42,502 nucleotides of DNA, from positions 1-42,502 of the forward strand of contig JALQYJ010000165.1 of assembly GCA_023254175.1 (NCBI GenBank), read 5' to 3'. The notes under the pieces were generated by a model. That model ran no database searches. It was not told the origin of the DNA and saw only the letters and a program-made list of their open reading frames with translations. Positions within the stretch are counted from its first letter, which is position 1, and every line of letters begins with the position of its first letter. Below, piece after piece: positions 21,570-42,502 of the stretch. Source of the DNA: Runella sp. GTDB lineage: Bacteria > Bacteroidota > Bacteroidia > Cytophagales > Spirosomataceae. A program made the translations under genes and the position numbers.

Positions 21570-22346
21570 ATGCTAACCAAATTGAATAACAAACTCCTAC
21601 AAGCAGGGCTTCTCTCAGCTTTAGTCTTATTGGGTGGCTGCAAAGCTTCGAGCACCAGTAACTCTGAAAAAGGTTTCAAATCTATTTTTAACGGCAAAAA
21701 TCTTGACGGCTGGGACGGCGATCCAACGTATTGGCGGGCTGAAAATGGCGTGCTAATTGGGGAAATTACCCCCAGTACTCTACTAAAAACGAATAACTTT
21801 ATTATTTGGAAAGGAGGCGAACCCGCTAATTTTGAACTAAAAGGAGAATTTAACATTGCCAAAACGGGTAACTCGGGTATCAACTACCGTAGCGAACGAT
21901 TGACCGATATTCCTTTTGCGTTGAAAGGCTACCAAGCTGATATTGACGGCCAAATCAATTATACAGGCCAAAACTACGAAGAACGGAAACGTACTACTTT
22001 GGCCTACCGTGGGCAGGTTACAACCATTAATCCCCAATCCTCCCCCATGTCTCCCGAGGAAGTGCGGGCTAAAGTTAAACGTAACGCGTGGACAGACCTC
22101 CAAGTAACGGGTTCACTTGGAACTTCGGATGAATTGAAAACAAAAATTAAATCAGAAGATTGGAACGAATTTCATTTAGTGATAAAAGGTAATCGCTTAC
22201 AACATTATATCAATGGTATCTTGATGAGTGATGTAACTGATAATGACCAAGTAAATGGTAAATCAAAAGGATTTCTAGGTGTGCAAGTACACGTGGGGCC
22301 TCCTATGAAAGTACAATACCGTAACCTCCGTTTGAAGCAATTGTAA
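21570..22346 (+). CDS. DUF1080 / 3-keto-disaccharide hydrolase family lipoprotein
   Basis: This 258-residue exported lipoprotein has lipobox LLGGC with Cys24. The mature domain is the LamG-like jelly roll of the DUF1080 family: FNGKNLDGWDG near residue 41, YWRAENGVLIG, FELKGEFNI, NSGINYRSE, and a closing GFLGVQVHVGPPMKVQYRNLRL. The Pfam family is now named 3-keto-disaccharide hydrolase. Characterised members cleave glycosidic bonds of 3-oxo-sugars. Attachment to a membrane suggests action in the periplasm or on the cell surface. It is the first gene of a co-oriented carbohydrate cluster, which includes an oxidoreductase of the type that can make 3-keto-sugars. That context supports the activity; the substrate is unknown. 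Confidence 0.88.
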   Translation: MLTKLNNKLLQAGLLSALVLLGGCKASSTSNSEKGFKSIFNGKNLDGWDGDPTYWRAENGVLIGEITPSTLLKTNNFIIWKGGEPANFELKGEFNIAKTGNSGINYRSERLTDIPFALKGYQADIDGQINYTGQNYEERKRTTLAYRGQVTTINPQSSPMSPEEVRAKVKRNAWTDLQVTGSLGTSDELKTKIKSEDWNEFHLVIKGNRLQHYINGILMSDVTDNDQVNGKSKGFLGVQVHVGPPMKVQYRNLRLKQL

Positions 22347-22466
22347 TGGAGTTAATCGTTAGCGGTAAAAACTTGTTAGCACACATTTAATAATCAAAAC
22401 AACAAACAGTTAACTATTAACAGACCACAGATAACAAATCAACAAACAAAATTGCTAGATAAGAAT

Positions 22467-23318
22467 ATGAATAAAATTGGCTTTAATGTTTTGGCTTGGT
22501 CGGCAGGAATGTCTGACGACTTATTTCCCATCATCGAACAGCTCAAAGAAATTGGGTACGACGGCGTAGAATATTTTATCGGTGCTCCCGATGAAGACGC
22601 TTACAAACGCGTGGGAAATCGCTCACGCGAATTGGGCTTGGGCGTCACGGCCGTCACGGTCGTCAGTCCCGACACCAACCCTGTAAGTGAATCGGCTACG
22701 GTACGCGCCCAAGCCCTTGACCAACTCAAATGGGTGATTGACCGAGCTTATGACTTAAACGCCGAAGTGCTTTGTGGACCTTTTCACTCGGCTCACGCCC
22801 ATTTTGTGGCTCGACCTGCTTCGGTAGATGAATTTGCCCGCGCCGCAGAAGTACTTCGTGCTGCGGGCGACTATGCCGCACAAGCCAATTTAATTCTTGC
22901 TCCTGAGGCTCTCAACCGTTTTGAATGTTACCTCTGTAATACCATGGAGCACCTTGCCAACTTGGTACAACTGACCAACCACCCCAACGTACGGGCGATG
23001 TTCGACACGCACCATGCCAACATCGAAGAAAAAAAATACGAATCGGCCATTCGTACCATAGCACCATACTTGAGCCATGTTCACATCAGCGAAAACGACC
23101 GAGGCACCCCTGGCGATGGTCACATTCCTTGGGATAATGCATTTGGGGGACTAGCAGCCGTTGGCTACAAAGGCTGGTTGACCATTGAGGCGTTCTCTCG
23201 TAATGACCCCGATTTTGCCAACGCCATCGGAGTTTGGCGCGAGTATAACGACCCTTGGCACATTGCCAAAAATGGCCTTACTTTTATTCGTGAAATGTCC
23301 ATCAAGCATAATTTGTAA
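22467..23318 (+). CDS. Sugar epimerase/isomerase, D-tagatose 3-epimerase-like TIM barrel
   Basis: This 283-residue cytoplasmic TIM-barrel protein is of the AP-endonuclease-2 / xylose-isomerase-like superfamily. The metal-binding and catalytic set of ketose 3-epimerases is seen as Glu147 (APEALNRFE), Asp180 (MFDTHH), His206 (HVHISEN) and Glu241 (TIEAFS). Each is exactly five below the residue numbers known for Pseudomonas cichorii D-tagatose 3-epimerase (152, 185, 211, 246). The stretch HISENDRGTPGDGHIPW is typical of that group. The ATG at 22467 is preferred over 22452, which would add five residues. Epimerisation at C3 of a free ketose is likely; action on an erythrulose- or inositol-like compound is possible. 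It is followed after 19 bases by a second TIM-barrel gene. Confidence 0.88.
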   Translation: MNKIGFNVLAWSAGMSDDLFPIIEQLKEIGYDGVEYFIGAPDEDAYKRVGNRSRELGLGVTAVTVVSPDTNPVSESATVRAQALDQLKWVIDRAYDLNAEVLCGPFHSAHAHFVARPASVDEFARAAEVLRAAGDYAAQANLILAPEALNRFECYLCNTMEHLANLVQLTNHPNVRAMFDTHHANIEEKKYESAIRTIAPYLSHVHISENDRGTPGDGHIPWDNAFGGLAAVGYKGWLTIEAFSRNDPDFANAIGVWREYNDPWHIAKNGLTFIREMSIKHNL

Positions 23319-23337
23319 TTAACCCATCATTTCAACT

Positions 23338-24165
23338 ATGTCAATATCACTCCCATTTCGTTTCGGTTCTGAGGTTTACACTTGGTTCATGAGCGGAAAC
23401 GGTACCACCCACCAAGGTCGTTTAGGCCACATGATTGAGATTATTTCGCAAGCTGGCTTCACAGGCATCCAACCCATTTTTACGTGGATGGGTGATTTGG
23501 TAAACCCCGACTTGCTGGAAGCTAAATTGAAAGAGCAAGGTATCGAGCTAGCCGCCGTCGCTTTGGCCTTGGAGTGGAATGGCAACGGTGAAAGCAACGA
23601 CGAACGCCGCATCGCCGACAATGCCATCGCTTTGTTACAACGTTTTCCTGGGGCGGTCTTAAATACCGTACAAATTCCGACGGGTCGCCACGACTTAGCT
23701 GCGCGTCAGAAAAGCTTAGTGAATATTGTCAATACCGTTTCGGCCCGTGCCAATGCGTTGGGAGTACCTTGCAGTTTTCACCCTAATTCACCGCATTCGT
23801 CGATTATTCGTACCGAAGAAGATTATAAAATCGTGTTGGAGTCGTTGGATGCTACCGTGACGGGCTGGACACCCGACGTGGGGCACATCATCAATGGTGA
23901 CATGGATCCGCTCACCAAAATGAAAGAATATGCCTCACTTATCAACCACGTTCATTACAAAGATTGGGACGGGAATCCCGAATTTACGTTGATGGGACGC
24001 GGAAAAGTTGATTTGCTCGGCGTTACTCAGTGGTTGAAAGACATCAATTATTCGGGCTGGATTATCTGCGAAGACGAAGGCGAAGAAGCCCTGGACGACC
24101 CCGATTTTGTGACCCTCCACGACGGACGTTGGATTTTAAACGATTTAATCCCCAATCTAAAATAA
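23338..24165 (+). CDS. Sugar phosphate isomerase/epimerase-like TIM-barrel protein (IolE/xylose isomerase-like)
   Basis: This 275-residue cytoplasmic protein is of the same superfamily as its upstream neighbour but clearly a different subgroup. Likely metal ligands are in CSFHPNSPHSS, TPDVGHI, VHYKDW and CEDEGEE. The arrangement HVHYKDWDG followed by MGRGKVDLLGV resembles inosose dehydratase IolE and related dehydratases or isomerases. No signal peptide was seen. It lies 19 bases after the epimerase gene and 37 before the hydrolase gene, so it is certainly in the same transcript. The reaction may be isomerisation or dehydration of a keto-sugar or inosose; the sequence does not decide. Confidence 0.85.
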   Translation: MSISLPFRFGSEVYTWFMSGNGTTHQGRLGHMIEIISQAGFTGIQPIFTWMGDLVNPDLLEAKLKEQGIELAAVALALEWNGNGESNDERRIADNAIALLQRFPGAVLNTVQIPTGRHDLAARQKSLVNIVNTVSARANALGVPCSFHPNSPHSSIIRTEEDYKIVLESLDATVTGWTPDVGHIINGDMDPLTKMKEYASLINHVHYKDWDGNPEFTLMGRGKVDLLGVTQWLKDINYSGWIICEDEGEEALDDPDFVTLHDGRWILNDLIPNLK

Positions 24166-24202: not shown

Positions 24203-25015
24203 ATGCCTTTTGTTCAAACCAACGATATCAATTTTTACTACGAAGAACGGGGTACGGCCAACGCTCAACCACTACTTCTCATTATGGGAATCACGGCAGC
24301 AGGCGGTGTGTGGGAACCTCACGCCTCGTACTGGGCAACCGATTTTCGTTGCATTATTGGCGATAACCGTGGCGTAGGCAAAACCGACAAGCCGCAAGGC
24401 CCCTATTCCACCGCCCAAATGGCCGACGATTATGCGGGTTTACTCGACGCCCTGGGTTTGGAAAATGTCCACGTTGTGGGCTGTTCGATGGGAAGCACGA
24501 TTGCGCAACAGCTCGCCGTTCGTCACCCTAAAAAAGTGCGCTCATTGGTGCTGATGTGTCCGTGGGCACGCTGTGACAACGTGGCAAAAGCTATTTTTAC
24601 CCACATGATGCACTGCAAAGCGCGCTTTCGGCCTGAGGAATTTAGCTTGTATATTCAGCAATTGATTTATTCAAAATCGTCGTGGGACAATGAAACAATT
24701 GCGGCAGAATTGGAAGCAGGACGCGCCCAAGCGGGCCTCGACCCGTTCCCTCAGCCGTTGCACGGATTGGAAGGACAAGCAGCCGCCTGTATTTCGCACA
24801 ATGCCTTGCCCGATTTACCGAACGTTACGCAACCGACGCTAGTCATTGGTGGTCGTGAAGATATTTTTACGCCCGTGTGGATGGCCGAAGAAGTGACCAA
24901 TGCAATGCCTAACGCTGAATTGTATTTGTACGAAAAAGCGGGACATATTTTTCATTTTGAGCACTTGGACGACTTTAACCCACGGGTGAAGAATTGGTTA
25001 CGTCAGCATACTTAA
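24203..25015 (+). CDS. Alpha/beta-fold hydrolase
   Basis: This 270-residue cytoplasmic hydrolase has the full catalytic triad in order: Ser95 in the nucleophile elbow GCSMG, Asp220 in GGREDIF, and His248 in KAGHIFHF. The oxyanion region reads LIMGITAAGGVWEP and is followed by GDNRGVGKTD, the common pattern of esterases and lactonases in this fold. No signal peptide is present. In a cluster of sugar isomerases and an oxidoreductase it may open a lactone or remove an acyl group from the imported glycoside. This is inference from context. The gene is spaced 37 and 33 bases from its neighbours. Confidence 0.88.
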   Translation: MPFVQTNDINFYYEERGTANAQPLLLIMGITAAGGVWEPHASYWATDFRCIIGDNRGVGKTDKPQGPYSTAQMADDYAGLLDALGLENVHVVGCSMGSTIAQQLAVRHPKKVRSLVLMCPWARCDNVAKAIFTHMMHCKARFRPEEFSLYIQQLIYSKSSWDNETIAAELEAGRAQAGLDPFPQPLHGLEGQAAACISHNALPDLPNVTQPTLVIGGREDIFTPVWMAEEVTNAMPNAELYLYEKAGHIFHFEHLDDFNPRVKNWLRQHT

Positions 25016-25048: not shown

Positions 25049-26122
25049 ATGAACACAAATGAAACAAACACGCAACCTTGGACCAACAAACTGTCGCACG
25101 CGGCGCAGTGGGGAGGTATCGAAACCTCCATACTCGACAACGGCCCAGGACGTGGTACGCGCATTGCGTGGATAAATACGGGAACGGGCTTGCGGTATAA
25201 AGTGGTACTTGACCGCGCCATGGACATCGCCGAGGCGTTCTATAACCAAAGCGGCTTGGCTTGGTTGAGTCATGCAGGCGTCACGCCGCCCCAACCTTTT
25301 TCGGACGGTGGCATCGATTGGCTTCGGACCTTCGGAGGAGGTTTACTTACCACTTGCGGGTTGAGCCACGTCGGTGGGCCTGAGTCAGACGAATACGGTC
25401 AGCGTGGCCTTCACGGTGAAATCAGCAATATTCCCGCCGAAATTGAATCCATCGTTCAGCCCGACCCTGCCGCGGGCAAGTTGGACATGAGCATTACGGG
25501 AATTATCAAACAAGCCCGCGTTTTTGGCCCTGTATTGGAACTGCGTCGGACGATTTCGGGAACGCTCGGACAGCCGACCATCAAAATCCACGACGAAGTC
25601 ATCAACCGCGCCAATACCCCTGCCCCGCACATGTTACTTTACCACTGCAACTTCGGTTGGCCACTGGTGGACGAAGGAACGCGTTTGGTGTGGCAAGGCA
25701 AATGGCAATCGCGGGAGGGTAATCCGCAAAATCCGATTTTTAATAACGATAACGATTTTCGCCGCTGTCCTGCCCCGCTCGAAGCCCACAATGGTTTTGG
25801 CGAAGAGGCCGCTTTTATCGACATCGACGCTGACGCCAACGGACAAGCAACTTGCGGAGTTTACAACGAAGCCCTCGGGTTGGCGGTAGCGCTTCGTTTT
25901 CCCAAAGCGCAATTACCTTGGCTCACCAACTGGCAGCACTGGGGCAAAGGCGAGTACGTCACAGGCTTAGAACCTGGCACCCACCCTCCGATTGGACAAG
26001 CGGCAGCACGGGCACAACATACGCTCATTGAGCTTGCACCAGGCGAAAAACGTAGCTACACCCTTGAAATTGAAATCATTACCGACTCAGCCGCGCTTCG
26101 CAACTTTGTTGGGAAACCCTAA
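25049..26122 (+). CDS. DUF4432-family aldose-1-epimerase-like protein
   Basis: This 357-residue cytoplasmic protein has the galactose-mutarotase-like beta-sandwich fold of the DUF4432 group. Features include DNGPGRGTRIAWI, YKVVLDRAMDIAEA, the GLSHVGGPESDEYGQRGLHGEIS region with the conserved histidines, and YHCNFGWPLVDEGT. EYVTGLEPGTHPP near the C-terminus is typical. Members bind carbohydrates, and some may act as epimerases or mutarotases, but the group has no settled reaction. It lies in the middle of the sugar operon, 33 bases after the hydrolase gene. A mutarotase step for an oxidised or unusual sugar is the best guess. Confidence 0.85.
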   Translation: MNTNETNTQPWTNKLSHAAQWGGIETSILDNGPGRGTRIAWINTGTGLRYKVVLDRAMDIAEAFYNQSGLAWLSHAGVTPPQPFSDGGIDWLRTFGGGLLTTCGLSHVGGPESDEYGQRGLHGEISNIPAEIESIVQPDPAAGKLDMSITGIIKQARVFGPVLELRRTISGTLGQPTIKIHDEVINRANTPAPHMLLYHCNFGWPLVDEGTRLVWQGKWQSREGNPQNPIFNNDNDFRRCPAPLEAHNGFGEEAAFIDIDADANGQATCGVYNEALGLAVALRFPKAQLPWLTNWQHWGKGEYVTGLEPGTHPPIGQAAARAQHTLIELAPGEKRSYTLEIEIITDSAALRNFVGKP

Positions 26123-26183: not shown

Positions 26184-27404
26184 ATGGCAAATTCAAGTAT
26201 AGCAGCAAAAGCATTAGAGCAAGGACAAGGTATTTTACGGCTCGCCCCTACGTGGGTTCCGCGCTCGTTTTGCGTTCCTGGCCGTCGTATCAAACTTCAC
26301 CCTGACGATTATTATGTGTTAGGCGGTGTTCGCGGCGGTATCGACGAGCGGTGGCTTTCTTCTACGACTCCTGCCAAAAACGGTCCACTCACGGGCGAAC
26401 ACGAAGGCTTGAGCAAAGTGGTGTTTGAAGAAAGTGGACAAACCGAACAAGTGTTGTTGAAAGACGTCATCGACGAATTGAAAGGCGAAATCGTTGGCGA
26501 CCGCCTTTGGGACGAATACCAAAGCTGGCCAATGTATTCCAAATTCTTTGATAACATGGGGCCTTTGCCGCACCATATCCACCACAACGACGAAAAGGCA
26601 GCTTTGGTAGGGCAAAACGGAAAGCCCGAAGCCTATTATTTCCCTCCCCAACTCAACAACCACGGTGGTGATTTTCCCTACACTTTCTTCGGAATTACGC
26701 CAGGTACCACCAAAGAACAAATCAAGCAATGCTTGATGGACTTCAATAAAGGTGACAACAAAATCACCAATTTCTCATCAGCTTATAAATTAGAACCAGG
26801 TACGGGCTGGGACGTACCTCCAGGTATTTTACACGCGCCAGGCAGCTTGTGTACCTACGAACCCCAAAAAGCATCCGACATTTTTGCCATGTACCAAAGC
26901 CTTGTCAATGAGGCAATTGTACCAGAAGAACTACTTTGGAATGGCACACCACAAGACAAGATGGGGGATTATGATGAGTTGGTTTCGGTGATTGACTGGG
27001 ATGCCAATGTTGACCCCAACTTTGCCGCCAATCACTTTATGATGCCTAAACCCGTACATCCGTTGGAAGAAATGCAAGCCCAAGGGTATGTAGAAAACTG
27101 GATTTGTTATCGATCTGAGGCATACAGTGCCAAAGAACTCACCGTCTTGCCAGGCGCTACTGTAACCATCACCGACAGCGCGGCTTACGGCTTAATCATG
27201 ATGCAAGGACACGGTAAAATGGGCGTGTGGAACATCGAAACACCTGCCTTGATTCGTTACGGACAATTGACCAACGACGAATTCTTTGTGACTGAGAAAG
27301 CAGCGAAAGCAGGCGTTACCATCACCAACTACTCGTCAACGGACCCTATCGTGATGTTGAAGCACTTCGGACCTAATAACCCTGATTTGGTCGTAGTGAA
27401 GTAA
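26184..27404 (+). CDS. Mannose-6-phosphate-isomerase-like cupin protein
   Basis: This 406-residue cytoplasmic protein looks like a class I phosphomannose isomerase relative. Candidate metal ligands are the histidines of LPHHIHHNDE (about 131-140), the glutamate of GKPEAYYF, and the histidine of VPPGILHAPGS. These match the order of zinc ligands in that family. Normal phosphomannose isomerases differ at many places and the N-terminal region (RSFCVPGRRIKLHPDDYY) is unusual, so a different aldose-ketose isomerisation is likely. The C-terminal part (LTVLPGATVTITDSAAYG) is a second cupin. The gene is 61 bases after the DUF4432 gene in the same operon. Which sugar or sugar phosphate it uses cannot be told. 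Confidence 0.8.
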   Translation: MANSSIAAKALEQGQGILRLAPTWVPRSFCVPGRRIKLHPDDYYVLGGVRGGIDERWLSSTTPAKNGPLTGEHEGLSKVVFEESGQTEQVLLKDVIDELKGEIVGDRLWDEYQSWPMYSKFFDNMGPLPHHIHHNDEKAALVGQNGKPEAYYFPPQLNNHGGDFPYTFFGITPGTTKEQIKQCLMDFNKGDNKITNFSSAYKLEPGTGWDVPPGILHAPGSLCTYEPQKASDIFAMYQSLVNEAIVPEELLWNGTPQDKMGDYDELVSVIDWDANVDPNFAANHFMMPKPVHPLEEMQAQGYVENWICYRSEAYSAKELTVLPGATVTITDSAAYGLIMMQGHGKMGVWNIETPALIRYGQLTNDEFFVTEKAAKAGVTITNYSSTDPIVMLKHFGPNNPDLVVVK

Positions 27405-27510: not shown

Positions 27511-28542
27511 ATGGCAGAAAACAATTTTCCAAAACTCCACAATGCCACATGGCCTGGGATTGTGGGTAAAGGCCCTGATTCAGAGCCTGCAATTGCATTC
27601 GACACCATGCTCGAAATGACTGCGGCAGCAGAAGTGGACGGCGTAAAATTTGACGGCGTGGACGTTGGTCTTTTTGACCCTCATTACGACCTCGATATAT
27701 CGGACGATGGCATCAAGCGCCTCGCCGACAAAGTAGCCAAGCACGGCCTCGAAGTAGGTAGCTTGGTGGCACCAATCTGGGGCGGCCCTGCGATGGGTAC
27801 CAAAGAGCAACGTGCCGAATTTGTGGAAATGGTGCGTAAGTCTTGCCACATCGGCCAAAAACTCCGCGAGTGGGGCCTTCGTCCAAACGGCATTGTTCGT
27901 ATCGACTCGGCAAGTAGTCCGCACGATTGGGCCAACGACCCTGCTGGCAACACCAAACTCATTGCCCAAACGTTCCGCGAAGCTTGCGACGTAGCAGCTG
28001 ATTTTGGTGAACGCCTAGCCGCCGAAGGAGAAATCTGCTGGGGCGGGATGCACTCGTGGAAATACATGCTCGATACGCTAGAGGCCGTTGACCGCAAAAA
28101 CATTGGTTTCCAAGCCGATATGTCGCACACAACCTTGTATTTGTTGGGTTATAATGCGCCAGAACACCGCGTGTTGCCCGAAGATTTCCAATGGGGCGAC
28201 CGCGAAACGTTCCTCGAAGGTTTGCGCAAATTGACCGCCGCCTTGCGTCCGTGGACTATCGACTTCCACGTTGCCCAAAACGACGGAACCGTGTTTGGTT
28301 CAGGCTCGCACGACAAAACAGGTCGCCACTGCCAAGCGACCGACCCGAACGGTAAACTCGACATCACCAACGACGCGGGACTTTGGCTTCGCAACGAAAG
28401 CGGTGAGTTGACCAAGGCATTCAAGCACATTTGCTGGGATGGCTGTATGTTCCCGAACGCGGTCATGAACAACCAACAAACGTGGAACGACATCCTCGCG
28501 GCCATGATTAAGGTGCGCAAAGCACACGGATGGGTTGAATAA
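27511..28542 (+). CDS. Third TIM-barrel sugar isomerase/epimerase-like protein
   Basis: This 343-residue cytoplasmic protein of the AP-endonuclease-2 / xylose-isomerase-like superfamily is longer than its two relatives in the operon. Putative metal ligands are in [21 protein letters not shown] and DFHVAQND, spaced as in the superfamily. The N-terminus ([17 protein letters not shown]) carries the usual first-strand acidic residues. The gene is preceded by a 106-base gap without recognisable sites. A role in isomerising or dehydrating the oxidised sugar is inferred from the fold and the neighbours. A single operon with three members of this fold suggests several successive carbonyl-shifting steps. 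Confidence 0.85.
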
Positions 28543-28655: not shown

Positions 28656-29816
28656 ATGTCAGCTAAAAAAGAAATCAGAATCGGATTAGTTGGGACGGGT
28701 TTGATGGGCCGTACCCACGCCAACGGATATAATCGAATTGCCAATTTCTTCCCAGAATTGGAGTACCGCCCCGTTTTGAAAGCAGTGTGTTCACGTAACC
28801 CTCAAAATGTGCAGGCATTTGCCGAGCAGTGGGGTTTTGAATCGTACGAAACCGACTGGAAAGTATTAGTGAACCGCGACGACATCGACGCAATTGATAT
28901 TTGTACCCCCAACGACAGCCACGCCGAAATCGCGTTGGCAGCAGCGGCAGCGGGCAAAATGATTCTTTGCGAAAAACCACTTGCACGCACCTTGGCCGAA
29001 GGCGAAACTATGGTAGAAGCCGCCGAAAAAGCGGGGGTAAAAACCACCGTTTGGTACAACTACCGTCGGATTCCTGCGGTGACTTTGGCCAAACAAATCG
29101 TAGATTCGGGAAAATTAGGCAAGATTTTTCACTACCGTGCCAACTTCCTACAAGACTGGACCATTAACGCCGACCTACCACAAGGAGGTACGGGGCTATG
29201 GCGCATGGACGTAGCCTCGGCGGGTTCGGGCGTAACGGGCGACTTGTTGGCCCACTGTATCGACACCGCGATGTGGCTCAACGGCGCCATCACCGACGTA
29301 TCGGCCATGACCGAAACCTTCGTCAAAGAGCGGATGCACCAGCTTACGGGCAAAGTAGAGCCTGTGGGCATCGATGACGCCTGTCTTTTCCACTGCCATT
29401 TTGCCAATGGTTCGTTAGGCTTGTTTGAGTCAACGCGCTATGCACGCGGCCACAAAGCCCTTTATACGTTTGAAATCAACGGCGAACACGCTTCAATTCG
29501 TTGGGATTTGCACGATTTGAACCGCCTCGAATACTTCGACCACAAAGATGAATCTATCGTACGCGGCTGGCGCTCCATCCACGTCACCGACGGCGACCAA
29601 CCCTACATGAACCGTTGGTGGATTCCTGGCTGCGGTATCGGATACGAGCACAGCTTTATCCACCAAGTAGCCGATTTCTTGAAAAGCCTCGAAGACGGCT
29701 CACCTTGCGGCCCAACGTTCAGAGACGCGCTCCAAACCCAAAAGGTATGCGAAGCGGTAATCGAATCTGCTAACTCTCGTAGCTGGAAAGATACGGGTGC
29801 AGAAGCGATTGGGTAG
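28656..29816 (+). CDS. Gfo/Idh/MocA-family NAD(P)-dependent oxidoreductase
   Basis: This 386-residue oxidoreductase has the Rossmann motif [12 protein letters not shown] (10-21) and the family motif CEKPLA (105-110) with catalytic Lys107. [13 protein letters not shown] carries Asp196, His200 and Asp203 of the substrate site. No signal peptide or Tat motif was seen, so it should be cytoplasmic. Family members oxidise or reduce sugar hydroxyls; inositol dehydrogenases and the glucoside 3-dehydrogenases that make 3-keto-sugars are known examples. Together with the DUF1080 protein and the TIM-barrel proteins, this supports oxidation of a sugar at one secondary hydroxyl as a key step of the pathway. 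It is the last gene of the first block and is closed by a hairpin. Confidence 0.92.
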
Positions 29817-30034: not shown

Positions 30035-30232
30035 GTGAAATCTTTTTCTGAGATTTTTATCTATTCTGACCAGCCAGCAACTTGCCCAAATTGTGGTTCA
30101 AGGTCAGAGATAATTTTAGAGATACCCCAAACAAAATATCAAACTCAAATCCACAAGTGTATCAATATAAAGTGCAAAAAAGAGTTTAAAATGCAATATG
30201 ATGAAGATTTTAATAATGGAGATTTATTATGA
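30035..30232 (+). CDS. Small zinc-ribbon protein of unknown function
   Basis: This 65-residue protein starts at GTG (30035). Four cysteines in two pairs, CPNC (about residues 17-20) and CINIKC (about 42-47), predict a zinc ribbon. The C-terminal third is acidic. Its last four bases ATGA overlap the start of the HNH nuclease gene, so the two are translationally coupled. Base composition is clearly more AT-rich than the flanking sugar genes, suggesting separate origin. A role as DNA- or RNA-binding partner, or as an immunity or regulatory partner of the nuclease, is conceivable, but nothing in the sequence decides. The GTG start is supported by the domain position rather than by a strong ribosome binding site. 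Confidence 0.7.
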   Translation: MKSFSEIFIYSDQPATCPNCGSRSEIILEIPQTKYQTQIHKCINIKCKKEFKMQYDEDFNNGDLL

Positions 30233-33897: not shown

Positions 33898-34014
33898 ATG
33901 TTTTTATACCACAAAAAACATAAAGAATTCACAATGTGCACAAAGGTTCTTTATGAACTTTATATTCATTATTTTGAATTTACGCTTTTTCAACCAAAAT
34001 TGACATATAACACA

Positions 34015-34953
34015 ATGAAACGTACATTAATCGGTTCGGCGCTTTGCGCTTTATTATTGGTAGGTTGCGGACAAGGAAGCAGCGAAAACAAGGAAGCTAA
34101 CGGAAGCAAAAAAATCACGATTGGCGTAACCATGCTCAGTATGCAAAATGAGTTTATCGTGAAAGTTAGTGATGAAATTGAGAAAAAAGCCCAAGAAATG
34201 GGCGTAGAACTCATCGTCGTCGATGCTGAGCGGTCAGCCCTGAAGCAAGTGGAACAAGTCGAAAGTTTTATTGCGCAGAAAGTTGATGCCATCATCATGA
34301 ATCCCTGCGAAGTAGAGGCAAGTTCCCCCGCAGTGACCAAGGCATTGGCAGCTAAAATCCCGATTGTTAATGTCAATTCAGAAACCAGTGCTGCTCCAAC
34401 TGCCTTTGTAGGCTCCGACGATGTAGAATCGGCGCGGATTGCGATGAAGTACATTGCCGAAAAACTCGGCGGCAAAGGCAACATTCTGATGATGCACGGC
34501 TACATGGGACAAGCCGCCCAAATCAAACGTGAACAAGGGGCGCGTGAAATTTTGAAACAATTTCCCAACCTCAAGCTCTTGGCCCACCAAACGGGAGAAT
34601 GGGATCGCGCCAAAGCTATGTCGCTCATGGAAAACTGGATTCAGTCATATGGCCCAAACATCAATGCCGTTTTTGCCCAAAACGACGAAATGGGCATGGG
34701 TGCCGTAAATGCCCTCACCGCCGCCGGGCTTAAAGATAAGGTAGTGGTAGTCAGTATTGATGCGATTCCAGACGCGCTTCAAGCTGTAAAAAAAGGCACT
34801 CTCAACGCAACCGTCTTCCAAAATGCCCAACAACAAGGCGCCAATGCCCTTGAAACGGCCGTTAAAATTGTCAAAGGGGAAAAATTTGAAAAACAAACCT
34901 TAATACCCTTTCAGCTTGTGACAAAAGAAAACGTAGAAACACTCCTAAAGTAG
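34015..34953 (+). CDS. Sugar ABC transporter substrate-binding lipoprotein (RbsB-like)
   Basis: This 312-residue periplasmic binding protein is of the ribose/galactose/inositol group (Peripla_BP_4-like). The ATG at 34015 opens a signal with lipobox LLVGC (Cys18); the open frame back to 33898 adds 39 residues with no signal character and is rejected. Domain features are KITIGVTMLSMQNEF at the first strand, IAQKVDAIIMNPCE, IPIVNVNSET, VFAQNDEMGMGAV and VVSIDAIPDALQAV, all standard for the family. Lipid anchoring in the outer leaflet of the inner membrane is likely. It is the third gene of the transporter set, closed by the terminator at 35060-35095. Confidence 0.92.
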   Translation: MKRTLIGSALCALLLVGCGQGSSENKEANGSKKITIGVTMLSMQNEFIVKVSDEIEKKAQEMGVELIVVDAERSALKQVEQVESFIAQKVDAIIMNPCEVEASSPAVTKALAAKIPIVNVNSETSAAPTAFVGSDDVESARIAMKYIAEKLGGKGNILMMHGYMGQAAQIKREQGAREILKQFPNLKLLAHQTGEWDRAKAMSLMENWIQSYGPNINAVFAQNDEMGMGAVNALTAAGLKDKVVVVSIDAIPDALQAVKKGTLNATVFQNAQQQGANALETAVKIVKGEKFEKQTLIPFQLVTKENVETLLK

Positions 34954-35236: not shown

Positions 35237-38200
35237 ATGCAAAAAAAGTTTATCCTACTTGAGGGTAGAGGCAACTTGTGTGTAGGCATCATTGCCTTAC
35301 TATTACTTGTAGCTACCAGCTCATTTGCTCAAAATGCCATCAAGGGAAAAGTATCTGCCAAAGACGGTGAAACACTCGTCGGAGTAAACGTCGCTATTAA
35401 AGGAACTACCCGTGGCACCAACACAGACGCGAACGGGACTTACAAACTTGATGTCCCCAACGGCTCAACCCTTGTATTTAGTTACATTGGGTATCTTACC
35501 AAAGAAGTGGCAGTAGGTTCACAAGCAACCATAGATGTGGTTCTTGATGTGAATGACAAAACCCTAAACGAAATTGTTGTTGTAGGTTATGGTAGTCAGG
35601 TAAAAAAAGAAGTAACTGGAGCTGTGCAAACCATCACAGCTAAAGAAATTAAGGATTTACCTGTATCGCAAATAGCTCAAAAACTGCAAGGACAGGTAGC
35701 CGGGGTACAGATCAACCAAACGACAGGTCGCCCAGGACAAGGGATGAACGTTCGTATCAGAGGGCAGCTTTCGGTATCAGGTGGTAGCGAGCCCCTCTAC
35801 GTTGTCGATGGTTTTCCTATTACAGGTAATATCGGAGCGTTGAACCCCGATGAAATTGAAGATATTTCTATTTTGAAAGATGCCGCCTCAACTTCATTGT
35901 ATGGTTCTCGGGCTGCCAACGGGGTAGTACTTATTACTACCAAAAGAGGTAAAAGCGGACAAACAAACGTAAGTTTTAACGTATTCACAGGAACTCAGGT
36001 CGTACCTAAAAAGGGTCGTTTTGAAATGATGGATGCCGTTGAGTTTGCACAGTTCAAAAAAGAATACTACGAAGATGCAAAACAACCCGTACCTGCCGAA
36101 TTCCAAAACCCTTCAATTTATGAAGGCAAAAATAATGACTGGTACGATGCCGTACTTCGCCGTGCGCCCCTTCAGAGCTACAACTTAACTTTGACTTCCA
36201 ATAAAGACAAAGTAAGCACTTCGTTGGTGGCCGGGGTTTTCAACCAAGAAGGTGTCGTTATTAATACCAAATACCAACGTTACTCACTTCGTCTCAACAG
36301 CGAGTATAAAGTATCAGACAAAGTGACCATCGGGATGAATATTGCCCCGCAGTACGTATTTGACAACACGCCTCGTACGGACGGTGACCGTGGAACAGGT
36401 ATCTTGTTTAATGCCATCCACACCTGGCCAGTGATGCCTATCTACGACGACAAAGGCGACCTTACATTATTTAACCGTTTTCCTTCAAGCACAGGTAATA
36501 TCTTTGCTTATCCTAACTGGGTGCGTGCGGCAAATGAGTTGGTGAATGAAACAAAACAAACCAACATTCTCTCAAACGCTTATGTTGCTTACAGCCCTAT
36601 CAAGGGTTTAACCCTAAAATCAACCTTCAACGTTGAATTGTTGAATCAAAAGTTCTTCTTCTTTAACCCTTCTACCGCAACCAGCGCCATTAACACGGCG
36701 GTGCCTGTTACGGCAGTTTCGATACGCGATGCAACGGATAACTTTGGCTGGTTGAACGAAAACTTGGCTACTTATTCTAAATCATTTAACGATCATAACA
36801 TCGAATTGCTGGCGGGTTACACTAACCAAAGCTTCCGTAGTGAGTCGAGCCGTATTCAAGCAGATACCTACTCGGACGACCGCCTTCCAACCATCCAAGG
36901 AGCCATTAACATTGCGCGCGGTGGTACCAGCAGTAACGTGCAGGAATGGAGACTGACCTCATTGCTATCTCGTTTGTCGTACAACTACAAAGGCAAGTAT
37001 CTTCTCACCGCCTCTATTCGTCGCGACGGTTCTTCTCGCTTTGGCTCTAACAATCGCTGGGGAACATTCCCATCATTATCAGCAGGTTGGGTAGTATCTG
37101 ACGAAGATTTCATGAAGAATTTCAGCAAGGTTTCGTTTGCAAAATTGAGAGCTAGCTTAGGGGTAACTGGTAACAATAACATCGGTAACTATACACAGTA
37201 TGCACTTATTAACAATACAGTAAATGCCGTGTTTGGGAATAACGTAGCAGCAGGAGCAGCGTTGACTTCGTTGGCCAACCCGAATTTGGGTTGGGAAACC
37301 ACTCGTCAATTAGACTTAGGTTTTGACCTTGGGTTCCTCAATGACCGTTTCCAATTTACGTACGACTATTACCTCAAGAATACCACTAACTTGTTGTTTG
37401 CTGTACAAATTCCACAAGAATCTGGCTTTACCAACTTTAATGATAACATTGGTGAAATTAAGTTTTGGGGACACGAATTTTCACTCAATACCCGTATTAT
37501 CGACCGTGGTAAGTTGAAATGGAGCGTCAACTCAAACATTTCCTTCAACCGCAACCGCGTGATAGCACTTGCAGACGGAATTGATCGCGTGTATGGATTG
37601 CACCACATTACAAAAGTTGGCGAGCCATTTGGCCAATTCTACGGGCACCTTGCCAACGGGGTGTATATGAATGCCGAGGACCTTAAAAACTCACCAGTCG
37701 TACCAGGCCGTTCATTTGTTGGTACAATTAAACTCGTTGACGTAAACGGGGATGGAGTAATTACCAACGGCGGCGACAAAGATGACCGTACTATTTTGGG
37801 TAATCCTTTCCCTGATTTCACTTATGGAATCACCACCAACCTCAACTATGGCAATTTTGACTTTAGCGTAGTTGGTTCGGGTTCGCAGGGTAACCAACTT
37901 TGGGTTCGTCACTTGTACAGCACGGCTAACTTAGACGGAGTGTTTAACCTTCATAGAGAAGTAAAATACCGCTTCCGTTCAGAAGCTAACCCAGGTAAAG
38001 GTTTCTACGGTACAACCGTTGGAGGTGGTACAGCTACAGGTATCGAGCGCGACTGGCAAAACAGCCGTTTTGTAGCTGATGCGTCGTTCTTTACAATTAA
38101 GAATATCACGGTGGGCTATACCTTCAACAAAAGCAATAAACTTTTCCGTTCGGCACGTATTTATGCTTCTATTCAGCAAGCATTGGTATTTACTAAATAT

Positions 38201-38335
38201 TGGGGTGGTTCTAACCCAGAAACAAGTGCGCAGCAAAACGGACAAGGTGACGGTGGTAACCTTAGCCCAGGCGTTGACTTATTCAACTATCCTGTACCAC
38301 GTACATCAACCATTGGTGTAAACTTTAATTTCTAA
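35237..38335 (+). CDS. SusC/RagA-family TonB-linked outer membrane protein
   Basis: This 1032-residue outer-membrane barrel imports glycans or glycosides with energy from TonB. The signal peptide ends near SSFAQ (about 31-32). A CarboxypepD_reg-like domain (about 35-105; IKGKVSAKDGETLVGVNVAI) comes next, then the plug (about 120-240) with the SusC signature SLYGSRAANGVVLITT (220-235), then the 22-strand barrel. It ends in the aromatic STIGVNFNF, as expected for outer-membrane barrel proteins. No extra STN domain precedes the CarboxypepD domain, so regulation through a FecI-type sigma factor is unlikely. It is paired with susD 31 bases downstream. Confidence 0.96.
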   Translation: MQKKFILLEGRGNLCVGIIALLLLVATSSFAQNAIKGKVSAKDGETLVGVNVAIKGTTRGTNTDANGTYKLDVPNGSTLVFSYIGYLTKEVAVGSQATIDVVLDVNDKTLNEIVVVGYGSQVKKEVTGAVQTITAKEIKDLPVSQIAQKLQGQVAGVQINQTTGRPGQGMNVRIRGQLSVSGGSEPLYVVDGFPITGNIGALNPDEIEDISILKDAASTSLYGSRAANGVVLITTKRGKSGQTNVSFNVFTGTQVVPKKGRFEMMDAVEFAQFKKEYYEDAKQPVPAEFQNPSIYEGKNNDWYDAVLRRAPLQSYNLTLTSNKDKVSTSLVAGVFNQEGVVINTKYQRYSLRLNSEYKVSDKVTIGMNIAPQYVFDNTPRTDGDRGTGILFNAIHTWPVMPIYDDKGDLTLFNRFPSSTGNIFAYPNWVRAANELVNETKQTNILSNAYVAYSPIKGLTLKSTFNVELLNQKFFFFNPSTATSAINTAVPVTAVSIRDATDNFGWLNENLATYSKSFNDHNIELLAGYTNQSFRSESSRIQADTYSDDRLPTIQGAINIARGGTSSNVQEWRLTSLLSRLSYNYKGKYLLTASIRRDGSSRFGSNNRWGTFPSLSAGWVVSDEDFMKNFSKVSFAKLRASLGVTGNNNIGNYTQYALINNTVNAVFGNNVAAGAALTSLANPNLGWETTRQLDLGFDLGFLNDRFQFTYDYYLKNTTNLLFAVQIPQESGFTNFNDNIGEIKFWGHEFSLNTRIIDRGKLKWSVNSNISFNRNRVIALADGIDRVYGLHHITKVGEPFGQFYGHLANGVYMNAEDLKNSPVVPGRSFVGTIKLVDVNGDGVITNGGDKDDRTILGNPFPDFTYGITTNLNYGNFDFSVVGSGSQGNQLWVRHLYSTANLDGVFNLHREVKYRFRSEANPGKGFYGTTVGGGTATGIERDWQNSRFVADASFFTIKNITVGYTFNKSNKLFRSARIYASIQQALVFTKYWGGSNPETSAQQNGQGDGGNLSPGVDLFNYPVPRTSTIGVNFNF

Positions 38336-38366
38336 ACCAACGGTTAAACCAAAATCATTGAAGAAC

Positions 38367-39878
38367 ATGAAAAAATCAATCATATTTTCTATTGCTCTAA
38401 GTTTAGGAGCTTTTAGCTGCAAAACCGACGAATTTCTTACCGTAACGCCCGAAACTGCCCTTAGTTCGGCTACATTTTTCAAGACCGAATCTGACTTTAT
38501 TCAGGCTGTCAATGCGGCTTATGTACCCTTACGTGCGCTACACAACGGTAACTCTCACTTGCTTGCCGAGCAACACTCCGATAATGCCCGTTATGTACGT
38601 AACGTTTTGTTTGGTGCTACTGAAAACCAATCCAACTTAGCAGATTTCAACGTACCCACTGCCAATGGCATCACGACCAACGGAAACGTCTTGACGGCCT
38701 ATCGTCAAAACTACCTGATTATTGCCAGAACGAATCAGGTATTGTCATTGATTGATGCGGCTACAATTCCAGATGCGACCAAAAAGAACGTAAAAGGGCA
38801 AGCCTTGTTTTTACGAGCATTGGCCTATTTAGAAATAGCCCGTTACTTTAATCGTGGCCCACTCCAGTTGACCCCAGTGAGTGCCCGTTCGGAAGCCGCC
38901 GCTGCACTTGGTACAGGCGAGCAATTGTACGCCCAAATCATCAAAGACGCTACCGAAGCCATCAGCCTTCTTCCTGCTAAATCGGCCCAAGAAGCTGGTC
39001 GTGCTACCTCTGGTTCAGCGCGTGCGTTGTTGGCCAATGTTTTTATGATTCAGAAAAAGTGGACAGATGCCGAAACACAACTTCGCGCCATTGTCACAAG
39101 TGGCGAATACAGCCTAATGCCCAACTATGCAGATGCTTTTTCGACAAGTACAGGTAATAAAAACACCAAAGAATCGGTGTTCGAAGTACAGTACTTAGAA
39201 GGGTCACAGGGACTCAATGGAACCTTCTTGTACGGCATGCTTCCCTACCCAATGGCAGCCAATGAATTGGTAACTATTACGGGTACTTCCAATCCTCAAC
39301 CTTTATCAGGAGAAGGGAATAATATTCCAACTCCTGATTTGATTGAAGCCTACGAAACAGGAGATAAGCGTAAAGATGCAACGATTGGGCTTATTACATT
39401 AAGTGGGGCTTTACATGCCAACAAAACTTTCCCTTATGCCAAAAAATATGCGAAGCCTCACTCTCTCCATAACAACCATGGTATGAACTGGCCTATCTAC
39501 CGCTATTCAGAAGTGCTGTTGTTCTTGGCAGAAGCGTTGATTGAACAGAATAAACTGACAGAAGCAGTTCCTTTCCTCAACCAAGTCCGTACCCGTGCAG
39601 GATTAGCAAATACCACTGCCGCTACGCAATCAGCACTCCGTGACGCCGTCTATCAAGAACGTCGCGTTGAATTGGCATTTGAATCAAAGCGCCTACATGA
39701 CTTGGTACGTACAGGCCGCCTCGCAACGGTCATCAAAGCCTATGGCGACCGTGTGAAAGCCGATAAGTTCCGGTATTATTTCCCAGAATCTGGCTTTGTT
39801 CCAAGTGATGCTTTCACCAACATCACCCCTTACTATGGACTCCCTGCTGCCGAAGCAGATTTGAGCCCTAATTTTTAA
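38367..39878 (+). CDS. SusD/RagB-family outer membrane lipoprotein
   Basis: This 503-residue surface lipoprotein forms the lid of the SusC transporter and binds the substrate. The ATG at 38367 gives MKKSIIFSIALSLGAFSC with Cys18 as the lipidated residue. An upstream TTG at 38358 is not needed. The N-terminal TPR helices (TATFFKTESDFIQAVNAAY, GQALFLRALAYLEIARYFN) and the C-terminal SusD motif (YRYSEVLLFLAEALIEQ, LNQVRTRAGL, VYQERRVELAFESKRLHDLVRTG) are clear. Length is normal. The ligand cannot be told; close proximity to the heme-dehydrogenase gene and the sugar operons links it to the same substrate. Confidence 0.95.
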   Translation: MKKSIIFSIALSLGAFSCKTDEFLTVTPETALSSATFFKTESDFIQAVNAAYVPLRALHNGNSHLLAEQHSDNARYVRNVLFGATENQSNLADFNVPTANGITTNGNVLTAYRQNYLIIARTNQVLSLIDAATIPDATKKNVKGQALFLRALAYLEIARYFNRGPLQLTPVSARSEAAAALGTGEQLYAQIIKDATEAISLLPAKSAQEAGRATSGSARALLANVFMIQKKWTDAETQLRAIVTSGEYSLMPNYADAFSTSTGNKNTKESVFEVQYLEGSQGLNGTFLYGMLPYPMAANELVTITGTSNPQPLSGEGNNIPTPDLIEAYETGDKRKDATIGLITLSGALHANKTFPYAKKYAKPHSLHNNHGMNWPIYRYSEVLLFLAEALIEQNKLTEAVPFLNQVRTRAGLANTTAATQSALRDAVYQERRVELAFESKRLHDLVRTGRLATVIKAYGDRVKADKFRYYFPESGFVPSDAFTNITPYYGLPAAEADLSPNF

Positions 39879-39885
39879 TTGTTTT

Positions 39886-39916: not shown

Positions 39917-40021
39917 TCTTTTCAGTTCATTGAAGGTTTCATAGCCTATTTTCAAAGTCAAAGATTACGATTCCACCCATGAGAACGTTGAACTTTCATT
40001 TGCATCCATATTTCTACTCCT

Positions 40022-42502
40022 ATGTTTACTAAACACCGCTCTCTCCGCGCATTTCTAGTGGCTTCTGCCCTGTTTACACTAGCGGCATCGTTTACTATCC
40101 TTAACAAAACGGAGCCCGCTGTCAACGGCCGCGATAACCCTAAAGTCGAAAAACTTCGCCTCCAGCCTGGTTTCAAAGCAGAACATTTATACAGCCCTTC
40201 AGGCAACAAACAGGGTTCTTGGGTTGCGATGACCTTCGACAACAAGGGGCGTCTCATTGCTTCTGACCAATACGGAACACTTTATCGTCTTGAATTACCG
40301 CCCATTGGCAGTACAGGTACTCCCAAAGTAGAGCCTCTAAAAATCGGGAAAGGCGCTGCCATTGATACACTCGGAATGGGATATGCAAACGGGCTATTGT
40401 ACGCTTTCAATAGCTTATACGTAATGATTAACAACAGTAAAAACAACAAAATTTTTACGCGTAAAAGTGGCTTGTATCGTTTGCAAGACACTGACAATGA
40501 CGATCAGTACGACAAGCTCACATTGATGAAAGAGCTTGCTGGAGACGGTGAACACGGCCCTCACAGCATTATCTTATCACCCGACAAGCAATCACTTTAT
40601 GTCATTTCGGGAAATCATACCGACGTCCCTAAAATGGACGCGTATCGTTTGCCTACGACTTGGCAAGAAGATAACCTTTTCCCGCTTATCAAAGACCCGC
40701 GCGGCCACGCCAACGACCGTATGGCTCCAGGTGGCTGGATTGCCAACGTTGACCCCGAAGGTAAAAATTGGGAGTTGATTAGTGCAGGCTACCGTAATGC
40801 CTTCGACATGGCCTTCAACGAAGTTGGTGATTTGTTTGTGTATGATGCCGATATGGAGTGGGATTTTGGTCTACCTTGGTACCGCCCTACCCGCATTTGC
40901 CACGCTACTAGCGCCACTGAATTTGGCTGGAGAACTGGTAACAGCAAGTGGTCAGCTACTTGGCCTGACAACCTCCCTCCAGTTATGAATATTGGTCAAG
41001 GCTCTCCGACTAACCTCATCTATTTAAGAGATGCCAAATTCCCTGCTAAATACAAGAAAACGTTGTTGGCCTTCGACTGGAGTTTTGGGATTATGCACGC
41101 CATTCACCTCAAACCGTCAGGTTCTACTTACACTGGCGAACACGAAGAATTTATTTCGGGTATTCCGCTTCCGCTTACCGACGGCGTGGTTGGTCCAGAC
41201 GGTGCCTTGTACTTTATGACAGGTGGTCGTCGTCTTGAATCGGATGTATATCGTGTCTATTACACAGGCACCGAAAATACTGCATCTCCTGCCCCAACAG
41301 CACTTACAAAAGAAAACGAGCTACGTCGTAGCTTGGAAAAATTCCACGGCGAGCCAAACGCAAAAGCAGTGGCAACGGCTTGGCCTTACTTGAAACACCC
41401 CGATCGGTTCATTCGTTATGCGGCACGTTTAGCCGTTGAACATCAACCTGTTGCTGAATGGCAAGACAAAGCTGTAAGCGAAAAAGACCCAATCACGTCT
41501 ATCAACGCTATCATCGCGCTTGCTCGTCAAAACAAAACAGACTTAAAAGGTGCCATGCTCAATTCTTTGATAAGCATCAATTTTAAATCGTTGACAGAAC
41601 CTCAGCAAATTGATTTATTGCGTGCTTACGAGTTGGTGTTCTTACGTACAGGCGCTCCCGATGCTGCCACAGGTTCAAAAATTGCGGCAGCGTTAAATCC
41701 ATTTTTCCCCGCTAATGCTAGCAGCTCTGACCTCAACCGTCAATTAAGCAAAATTCTGGTTTACTTAGAAGCTCCAGGTGTAATCCCTAAAATATTGGCC
41801 TTGCTAGAAGCCAAAGAACAACCTACGAATCTTACCGCAGGTGGTGAAACTGCTACGGCATCGGCTGAGTTAATTATGCGTAACCCCCAATACGGTTTGG
41901 ACATTGCTGACATGTTGAAAAGTATGCCTCCTGCCCAGCAGACCTACTATGCTACTATGCTTAGCCTAGCCAAAAAAGGATGGACGCCTGAGCTGCATGA
42001 GCGTTATTTCAAATGGTTCTACAAAGCATTTAGCTACAAAGGTGGACGTAGCTACGTTGGTTTTATCGACCGTGCACGTAAACTTGCTTTGAAAAATGTT
42101 CCAGAAGGCAAGACAGCCTATTACGATAAGCTTTCGGGTGCTGAGTTATTGAGCAAAAATGGAAATGACATTGCAAAAGTAACTTATCCGAAAGGCCCAG
42201 GTCGCCAGTGGAAACTTGATAATGCCACCGCCGCCGTAGAGGGCAAACTGACAAGCCGTAACTTTGAAAACGGTAAAAACATGTACGAAGCCATTACTTG
42301 TAACCGTTGCCACAGTATGCGCGGAGAAGGTGGCAGTATCGGGCCAGATTTAACCCAATTGGGAACTCGTTTCTCTACCAAAGACATGCTAGAGGCCATC
42401 ATCGAGCCCAATAAGAGTGTTTCTGACCAATACGCAGCAACGCACTTTACGCTCAAAAACGGCGAGTCTATCGTGGGCCGTTTGACCAACGAAGATGCCA
42501 AT
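40022..42502 (+). CDS. PVC-type membrane-bound dehydrogenase / heme-binding domain protein (partial)
   Basis: These 827 codons run to the right edge with no stop, so the C-terminus is missing. The ATG at 40022 opens a signal peptide (RAFLVASALFTLAASFTIL). A six-bladed propeller-like domain of the soluble glucose/sorbosone dehydrogenase kind follows (about 40-410; LRLQPGFKAEHLY, GWIANVDPEG, GPDGALYFMTGG). Then come an all-helical HEAT-like region (about 430-700) and a c-type cytochrome domain with CNRCH at 760-764 and GGSIGPDLTQLG. This layout is that of the TIGR02604/TIGR02603-type proteins abundant in Planctomycetes and Verrucomicrobia. It should act in the periplasm as a sugar or glycoside dehydrogenase passing electrons to the respiratory chain. 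It follows susD after a terminator. Confidence 0.9.
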   Translation, partial: MFTKHRSLRAFLVASALFTLAASFTILNKTEPAVNGRDNPKVEKLRLQPGFKAEHLYSPSGNKQGSWVAMTFDNKGRLIASDQYGTLYRLELPPIGSTGTPKVEPLKIGKGAAIDTLGMGYANGLLYAFNSLYVMINNSKNNKIFTRKSGLYRLQDTDNDDQYDKLTLMKELAGDGEHGPHSIILSPDKQSLYVISGNHTDVPKMDAYRLPTTWQEDNLFPLIKDPRGHANDRMAPGGWIANVDPEGKNWELISAGYRNAFDMAFNEVGDLFVYDADMEWDFGLPWYRPTRICHATSATEFGWRTGNSKWSATWPDNLPPVMNIGQGSPTNLIYLRDAKFPAKYKKTLLAFDWSFGIMHAIHLKPSGSTYTGEHEEFISGIPLPLTDGVVGPDGALYFMTGGRRLESDVYRVYYTGTENTASPAPTALTKENELRRSLEKFHGEPNAKAVATAWPYLKHPDRFIRYAARLAVEHQPVAEWQDKAVSEKDPITSINAIIALARQNKTDLKGAMLNSLISINFKSLTEPQQIDLLRAYELVFLRTGAPDAATGSKIAAALNPFFPANASSSDLNRQLSKILVYLEAPGVIPKILALLEAKEQPTNLTAGGETATASAELIMRNPQYGLDIADMLKSMPPAQQTYYATMLSLAKKGWTPELHERYFKWFYKAFSYKGGRSYVGFIDRARKLALKNVPEGKTAYYDKLSGAELLSKNGNDIAKVTYPKGPGRQWKLDNATAAVEGKLTSRNFENGKNMYEAITCNRCHSMRGEGGSIGPDLTQLGTRFSTKDMLEAIIEPNKSVSDQYAATHFTLKNGESIVGRLTNEDAN

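Follow-up and report, generated by a model that had tools for sequence, protein, structure and literature searches.

What does a bacterium break down with a set of sugar-converting genes that matches no pathway known by name? This question was raised by a stretch of 42,502 nucleotides (here called the window), which makes up the entire contig C115 of a Runella genome of 4.85 Mb and carries eight conversion genes followed by genes for sugar import and for a cytochrome-tailed protein. Our analysis revealed that this locus is real, conserved, and outside every pathway tested. In our estimation, there is an even chance that it is a catabolic locus for a glycoside based on 3-keto-sugar chemistry, in which oxidation and hydrolysis take place outside and are followed by reduction, isomerization, and epimerization inside, and for which we infer the reactions, the order of the steps, and the substrate. 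Its core consists of six genes, including one for a protein similar to phosphomannose isomerases (PMIs):

21570..22346, + strand, KDH: lipoprotein of the 3-keto-disaccharide hydrolase family PF06439/DUF1080 (Pfam; N-terminal LLGGC lipobox)
25049..26122, + strand, D4432: DUF4432 protein, aldose-1-epimerase-like (PF14486; PDB 3ty1)
26184..27404, + strand, CUP: class I PMI-like putative metal isomerase of 406 aa (hhalign, Foldseek)
27511..28542, + strand, TIM3: TIM barrel of 343 aa with a ketose epimerase/hydratase-like fold (structure model, Foldseek)
28656..29816, + strand, GFO: Gfo/Idh/MocA oxidoreductase, levoglucosan-dehydrogenase-like (NF052479; PDB 4h3v, 6a3f)
40022..42502, + strand, CYTC: PVC-type, DUF7133-like protein with a C-terminal cytochrome c, probably exported, incomplete (TIGR02603/TIGR02604, PF23500)

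Conservation and gene content of the locus

DUF4432 was present in 33 of 59 genomes, that of the window included. In all 32 relatives' loci examined, one strand carries the genes for DUF4432, CUP, TIM3, and GFO, in that order; the contigs of L045 and L062 end within GFO, and in L039 and L047 CUP and TIM3 are separated by an extra open reading frame (ORF). KDH was found in 26 of these 32 loci; five of the remaining six stop near a contig end upstream, and for the sixth, from genome G040, KDH was located farther upstream, in L243. A survey of named loci from Bacteroidota, covering the best 80 of 576 CUP relatives and including several short contigs, revealed D4432 as a neighbor of CUP in 75 cases, followed by TIM3 (70), GFO (67), KDH (61), and CYTC (56). 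Less frequent neighbors were TIM1 and RbsA (27 each), SusD (26), TIM2 and ABH (23 each), and a ThuA-like gene (10). We count TIM1, TIM2, ABH, and the ThuA-like gene as accessories to the core, and the transport genes vary.

Among 296 genomes drawn from the phylum, 20 carried a match to CUP, namely nine close ones (the window's genome included), one intermediate (504 bits), eight from a distant subfamily (about 250 bits), and two that were weak and short. A further 11 matches, nine of them close, were detected in 244 genomes of another class, in which the order is TIM3-GFO-D4432-CUP and the genes stand together in seven of nine loci; in L213, from this class, the contig starts at D4432. That the same partners recur in an altered order argues for selection for function. 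The proposal of an uptake-and-oxidation locus for an unusual sugar, made in the initial annotation, is well supported, since the comparison of gene order across relatives found the blocks together, and not scattered, across Bacteroidota classes.

The accessory, transport, and remaining genes of the window are as follows:

22452..23318, + strand, TIM1: ketose 3-epimerase-like TIM barrel, accessory (D-tagatose 3-epimerase matches)
23338..24165, + strand, TIM2: IolE/LgdB1-like TIM barrel, accessory (PF01261; IolE model; LgdB1-like alignment)
24203..25015, + strand, ABH: PcaD-like alpha/beta hydrolase, accessory (domain and family models)
30229..30999, + strand: HNH endonuclease gene between the blocks, probably unrelated (PF13391)
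31444..32940, + strand: RbsA-type ATPase of a CUT2 sugar importer (ABC_tran)
32953..33897, + strand: RbsC-type permease (BPD_transp_2)
33898..34953, + strand: RbsB-type sugar-binding protein (Peripla_BP_4; RbsB model 189 bits, cut-off 337)
35237..38335, + strand: SusC-type TonB-dependent receptor (TonB plug)
38358..39878, + strand: SusD-type lipoprotein (SusD family)

From position 21570 onwards, KDH, TIM1, TIM2, ABH, DUF4432, CUP, TIM3, and GFO are arranged in series on the + strand; downstream of GFO follow the HNH gene, RbsA-RbsC-RbsB, SusC-SusD, and CYTC (ORFs and domain scans). ORFs, coordinates, and Pfam matches thus agree with the eight co-oriented conversion genes, importer, SusC/SusD pair, and cytochrome protein described initially, with Pfam E values of 7.5e-35 for PF06439, 1.2e-42, 1.5e-19, and 2.8e-13 for the PF01261 TIM barrels, 2e-101 for DUF4432, and 5.3e-28 for Gfo/Idh/MocA. 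Gene finding relied on a simple ORF caller and BLAST, which small or overlapping genes may escape. A strong terminator-like hairpin lies between SusD and CYTC (39886-39916) and, together with the intergenic gaps, suggests several transcription units. The initial annotation mentioned neither the HNH gene nor this hairpin. Since the window is the whole contig, the CYTC gene is incomplete.

The HNH protein (30229-30999) revealed a weak likeness to restriction enzymes for phosphorothioated DNA (49 bits against 180), and an HNH gene follows GFO in 4 of the 32 relatives' loci as well, all of the same genus. A gene that we read as ThuA-like lies between TIM1 and TIM2 in 15 relatives' loci; as these two are 19 bases apart here (23318-23338), it was either lost in the window or gained elsewhere. 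NCBIfam assigned it to no family, and a similar-looking gene in L113 passes PF06283. Further downstream of GFO, L148 and L161 have a gene run in common, which in L161 includes 3-dehydroquinate-synthase-like and TatD-like proteins and which, we presume, resembles ebo operons. Sulfatase-like genes were seen in the examined flanks of the core in L053, L056/L138, L119, L144, L151, L175, L212, and L213, so that some species may have a sulfated natural substrate.

Enzyme families, compartments, and a proposed route

KDH passed PF06439 with 121.1 bits (cut-off 26.8) over the complete profile (1-187 of 187); the parts of PMC9765024 consulted name no active-site residues for this family. The incomplete CYTC scored 80 bits with TIGR02604 and 61.5 bits with TIGR02603, both below the cut-off; its orthologue in L057 passed TIGR02603 (95 bits, cut-off 68.15) and did not reach TIGR02604 (71.4 bits, cut-off 122.2). 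PVC-type cytochrome proteins are common in Planctomycetota and Bacteroidota, and we know of no activity for them, the literature on this type having been searched in combination with other terms. That CYTC might be a recognizable pyrroloquinoline quinone (PQQ) sugar dehydrogenase was rejected after a profile search of PDB sequences gave no such match. In one class-distant locus, a cupredoxin gene adjoins CYTC.

Export was judged by a crude test for an N-terminal hydrophobic stretch, applied, like the survey of flanks, to sequences from 33 relatives (the window included) and to 80 named loci, with some genomes in both sets. The test was positive for KDH (78 of 88), CYTC (62 of 72), the ThuA-like protein (21 of 25), SusD (38 of 39), and RbsB (32 of 35), and rarely or never for CUP (0 of 112), GFO (0 of 98), TIM1 (0 of 47), TIM2 (0 of 41), TIM3 (1 of 102), and D4432 (2 of 107). 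Its limits are seen with ABH, flagged in 33 of 43 cases, which we took as false, and with SusC, caught in 20 of 32 cases and missed in 12. Since KDH and CYTC were flagged as exported, the glycoside is probably oxidized and hydrolyzed outside the inner membrane; GFO, CUP, and TIM3, which were not flagged, would act on imported material. For the same reason, GFO is more likely a reducer of the imported keto-sugar. Of the route first suggested, i.e., oxidation, hydrolysis or elimination, and isomerization, the 3-keto chemistry was thus kept, but a Gfo/Idh/MocA enzyme producing the substrate of KDH became less likely, as the compartments differ.

The two exported families were also counted in eight chosen genomes. 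Of 63 TIGR02603-type genes (the window's own and 62 places over the cut-off, of 87 counted), 13 had a listed PF06439 stretch (150 of 189 are listed) at most 5 kb away, with 1.7 expected assuming uniform placement; outside the core, the same pairing was seen for 8 of 55. In genome G000, we counted 19 PF06439 stretches, nine matches to GMC, and eight to the CYTC profile (two of these share one reading frame), and 3-keto chemistry may therefore be widespread in that organism.

For CUP (406 aa), no Pfam match was obtained at an E value of 0.001 and no convincing match among PDB sequences. Profile alignment to one annotated class I PMI with hhalign resulted in a probability of 97% (E value 1.2e-10) over 152 columns across the metal motif, and Foldseek matched 1qwr (E value 3e-6), starting from a low-confidence model. 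Residues H131, H133, E149, and H217 were invariant in 23 alignment rows. Homology (hhalign) and the common HxH...E...H motif (alignment), whose residues we take to bind the metal in CUP and in class I PMIs, are features of this superfamily; based on these similarities, we place CUP with the class I PMIs as a putative metal isomerase. Structure prediction, as proposed in the initial annotation, worked well for TIM3 (pLDDT 85) and poorly for CUP (pLDDT 64).

Distant relatives of CUP stand in other surroundings. One on an Arthrobacter plasmid (L083, 15001-16110) has dihydroxyacetone-kinase-type, ribose-5-phosphate isomerase, triose-phosphate isomerase, and RbsABC-type genes as neighbors. Eight more among L090-L098 showed 33-37% identity, of which that in L092 is part of a gene run that includes amylase, GH2, aldo/keto reductase, and xylulokinase; in L090, a relative with 50% identity adjoins RbsB. 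The CUP match of a draft genome (G390:C19:10296-11507) contains one in-frame TGA.

Among the TIM barrels, TIM1 is nearest to D-tagatose/D-psicose 3-epimerases (E value 5e-36 to D-tagatose 3-epimerases, 1e-13 to YcjR), scoring 141.6 bits with the PsicseEpim model NF051856 (cut-off 300). It aligned with the D-tagatose 3-epimerases at the Glu of eAlNRfE, DthH, HvHisE, DRGTPG, and iEaF, residues to which we ascribe metal-binding and catalytic roles. TIM2 reached 59.5 bits with IolE (cut-off 290) and 29% identity over 126 aa to an LgdB1-like protein. A profile of TIM3 gave no PDB sequence match at an E value of 0.01; by structure, Foldseek retrieved psicose 3-epimerases, AtHYD (8ro4), and YcjR (6wn6) with TM-scores of about 0.5-0.6. 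The possibility that TIM3 is a divergent RhaI or a copy of TIM1 was discarded, as profile comparison found no similarity. DUF4432 matched PF14486 with 339 bits and PDB 3ty1, a 'hypothetical aldose 1-epimerase', with an E value of 1e-26.

Two described pathways come close to this gene set. In the parts of PMC9007349 on them, Caulobacter is proposed to oxidize C3 in the periplasm by the membrane-bound LacABC dehydrogenase, followed by a periplasmic DUF1080 hydrolase, and both this and the Bacteroides BT2157-type pathway share with our locus the DUF1080/PF06439 hydrolase and a C3 oxidation before cleavage. Unlike these, the locus carries a PVC-type CYTC in place of LacABC, its GFO scored only 37 and 36 bits with the models for the glycoside 3-dehydrogenases BT2158/BT2159 (NF058561/NF058563, cut-offs 750/650), and CUP, DUF4432, and TIM3 find no mention in the parts of PMC9007349 on the BT2157 and LacABC pathways. 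The locus probably follows this known kind of 3-keto-sugar catabolism, in a variant by a new route. The E. coli YcjQRS route from gulosides to glucosides is similar in its 3-keto intermediates, its TIM-barrel epimerase, and its Gfo/Idh/MocA reductase but, to our knowledge, has neither a hydrolase/cytochrome pair nor a PMI-like cupin.

Starting from what was observed directly, namely gene content, families, conservation, export signals in the crude test, and aldolase recruitment in relatives, the following route may be proposed. SusC/SusD would carry the glycoside into the periplasm, where the exported CYTC would oxidize it, probably at C3, and pass the electrons to the respiratory chain, before the lipoprotein KDH would cleave the 3-keto-glycoside hydrolytically. 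RbsABC would then take up the freed keto-sugar. In the cytoplasm, DUF4432 may equilibrate its anomers, GFO may reduce the 3-keto group, the PMI-like CUP may turn the aldose into a ketose, and TIM3, with TIM1/TIM2 where present, may correct C3 or a neighboring center. The ketose would finally join ordinary metabolism, in several relatives via an FGGY kinase and a rhamnulose-1-phosphate aldolase/dehydrogenase.

Several observations speak against this route. CYTC matched DUF7133 only weakly (PF23500, 20 bits, cut-off 27), and its profile hit solely cytochrome c, diheme, and HEAT-type proteins among PDB sequences; moreover, KDH and CYTC stand apart from each other in the window. In the class-distant L216, CUP is found without any other core gene in the 8 kb examined, and another locus, L160, has CUP and CYTC without DUF4432, TIM3, and GFO. 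GFO could also work in the direction of an oxidase instead of a reductase.

Other routes considered

A different use of the same families would be the oxidation, elimination, hydration, and reduction of an anhydrosugar or glycoside, as in the levoglucosan pathway or in the O- and C-glycoside eliminase (OGE/CGE) pathways treated in PMC10628242. Here, GFO would produce a 3-keto-glycoside within the cytoplasm, beta-elimination would fall to TIM2 or TIM3, and another TIM barrel would hydrate the glucal. The LgdA-LgdB1-LgdB2/B3-LgdC pathway, as described in PMC7676230 and PMC10066097, resembles the locus in an LgdA near to GFO, in its TIM-barrel partners, and in an ABC importer. Best PDB matches of GFO were 4h3v (334 bits), named only as an oxidoreductase domain protein, and 6a3f (268 bits), which is levoglucosan dehydrogenase according to PMC10066097. 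Furthermore, GFO is 38-39% identical to LgdA-type proteins of three plasmid clusters (the Lgd-type labels are our own, on plasmid clusters and not on assayed strains), two of which have adjoining ABC importer genes; AtHYD, a glucal hydratase, is among the fold matches of TIM3, and TIM2 is weakly similar to LgdB1-like proteins. However, identity within the LgdA-type group itself is 69-76%, and GFO reached 329 bits with the levoglucosan dehydrogenase model NF052479, far below the cut-off of 650. Clear homologues of LgdB1 and LgdB2/B3 beside GFO were not found either, TIM2 being weak and TIM3 without sequence similarity to the LgdB1- and LgdB3-like TIM barrels of the three clusters. An assignment to levoglucosan was rejected on account of these scores and of the distance of GFO from the LgdA-type plasmid proteins. 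Since an elimination route, in addition, leaves CUP, DUF4432, and the exported KDH and CYTC unexplained, we regard it as unlikely.

The second alternative is the salvage of a rare free sugar, in which RbsABC would import an aldose, CUP would isomerize it, and TIM1/TIM3 would epimerize the resulting ketose, with GFO as an aldose dehydrogenase in a side branch and KDH/CYTC as a separate periplasmic glycoside route of a common regulon. Monosaccharides are the usual cargo of RbsB/CUT2 systems, TIM1 lies near the ketose 3-epimerases, CUP is PMI-like, and the class-distant L212 shows the order TIM3-GFO-D4432-CUP-TIM1 with no match to KDH or CYTC in the 18 kb examined. Yet, in the best 80 CUP loci, KDH and CYTC are both commoner than TIM1, and we regard salvage as improbable to a similar degree.

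An inositol or other cyclitol pathway, the main alternative in the initial annotation, is very improbable and was rejected, since the weak matches of GFO to IolG (120 bits, cut-off 355) and of TIM2 to IolE stay far below the equivalog cut-offs and no iolB-, iolC-, or iolD-type family was found among the window genes scanned. Six matches in annotated plasmid neighborhoods of relatives of GFO, DUF4432, TIM1, and TIM2 revealed no locus of the same kind. The early impression that the gene set fits no nameable pathway held for every pathway tested.

A possible rhamnulose end point

Returning to the glycoside route with oxidation and hydrolysis outside, hints on its end point came from the relatives. 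No aldolase or sugar kinase was seen initially, which is true for the window, but not for all relatives. A rhamnulose-1-phosphate aldolase fused to a short-chain dehydrogenase/reductase (RhaD/SDR) lies beside or inside the core in five of them (G033, L159, G040, G227, and G390), accompanied by an FGGY kinase in G033, G390, and, truncated, G227. In G390 and G227, the fusion is placed between CYTC and KDH and scores above the NCBIfam equivalog cut-offs. G033 carries it with a rhamnulokinase-like kinase after RbsB, this core copy being the only over-cut-off RhaD/SDR listed for the genome, with RhaI elsewhere; in the metagenome-assembled genome L159, it also follows RbsB. G040 has a second copy upstream of SusC-SusD-CYTC-KDH, 22 kb from DUF4432. 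In G132 and G227, an ordinary rhamnose operon with RhaI is found at most 20 kb from the core. After the core of L212, a FucA-like class II aldolase and sulfatases were identified.

In a tree of 15 RhaD/SDR sequences (one from G040 entered twice), the core-linked copies did not form one clade. The copy of L159 fell among ordinary ones from Cytophagales (support 0.88), the pair from G227 and G390 joined the G227 operon copy (1.00), and those of G040 and G033 stood apart from L159. From this scatter, RhaD/SDR was probably recruited to the core at least three times. Kinase and aldolase at the core suggest that the ketose is phosphorylated and cleaved, and it may be L-rhamnulose or a close 6-deoxyketose. 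The known L-rhamnose pathway (RhaI-RhaB-RhaD/SDR) is thus approached by some relatives, but differs in that its RhaI lies outside the core and shares no profile similarity with TIM3.

Other results make us cautious about rhamnulose. RhaD/SDR occurred within the examined flanks of only 4 of 122 loci. Of 43 genomes, 2 had RhaI no farther than 25 kb from the core (0.40 expected, p 0.06; without G238 and G365, which have no RhaI, and G409, whose weak 30% match was dropped). RhaD/SDR lay as near in 2 of 32 relatives (0.27 expected, p 0.03; G025, a fragment only, and 13 genomes outside the 33 relatives being left out as well), and larger distances gave p values of 0.02-0.10. The Runella genome itself has a complete RhaD-RhaI-RhaB operon on another contig (C116), and none of RhaI, RhaB, and RhaD was among the window genes scanned. 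RhaI was present in all 33 genomes with DUF4432 and in 6 of 26 without, a difference confounded by kinship, and five of six family members lacking DUF4432 still have RhaI. As the proximity to rhamnose genes is weakly significant, the rhamnulose end point is a suggestion only.

A literature search on 3-keto-rhamnose returned no entries. That the substrate is a 6-deoxyhexose glycoside is a testable guess. Put most specifically, and as a rather unlikely version, this would be an undescribed pathway, common among Bacteroidota, for 6-deoxyhexose (L-rhamnose-type) glycosides that does without a classical rhamnosidase and rhamnose isomerase, in which a PVC-type cytochrome protein serving as a novel type of glycoside 3-dehydrogenase, cleavage by a DUF1080 lipoprotein, and a novel PMI-like isomerase with a TIM-barrel epimerase would lead to L-rhamnulose and from there to the ordinary aldolase.

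Whatever the sugar, many Bacteroidota genomes carry this core, which unites a putative isomerase outside all Pfam families, a DUF4432 protein without an assigned role, and a PVC-type cytochrome protein. With gene order this strongly conserved, assigning a single substrate would serve to annotate hundreds of genomes, and it could give PVC-type cytochrome proteins an enzymatic role.

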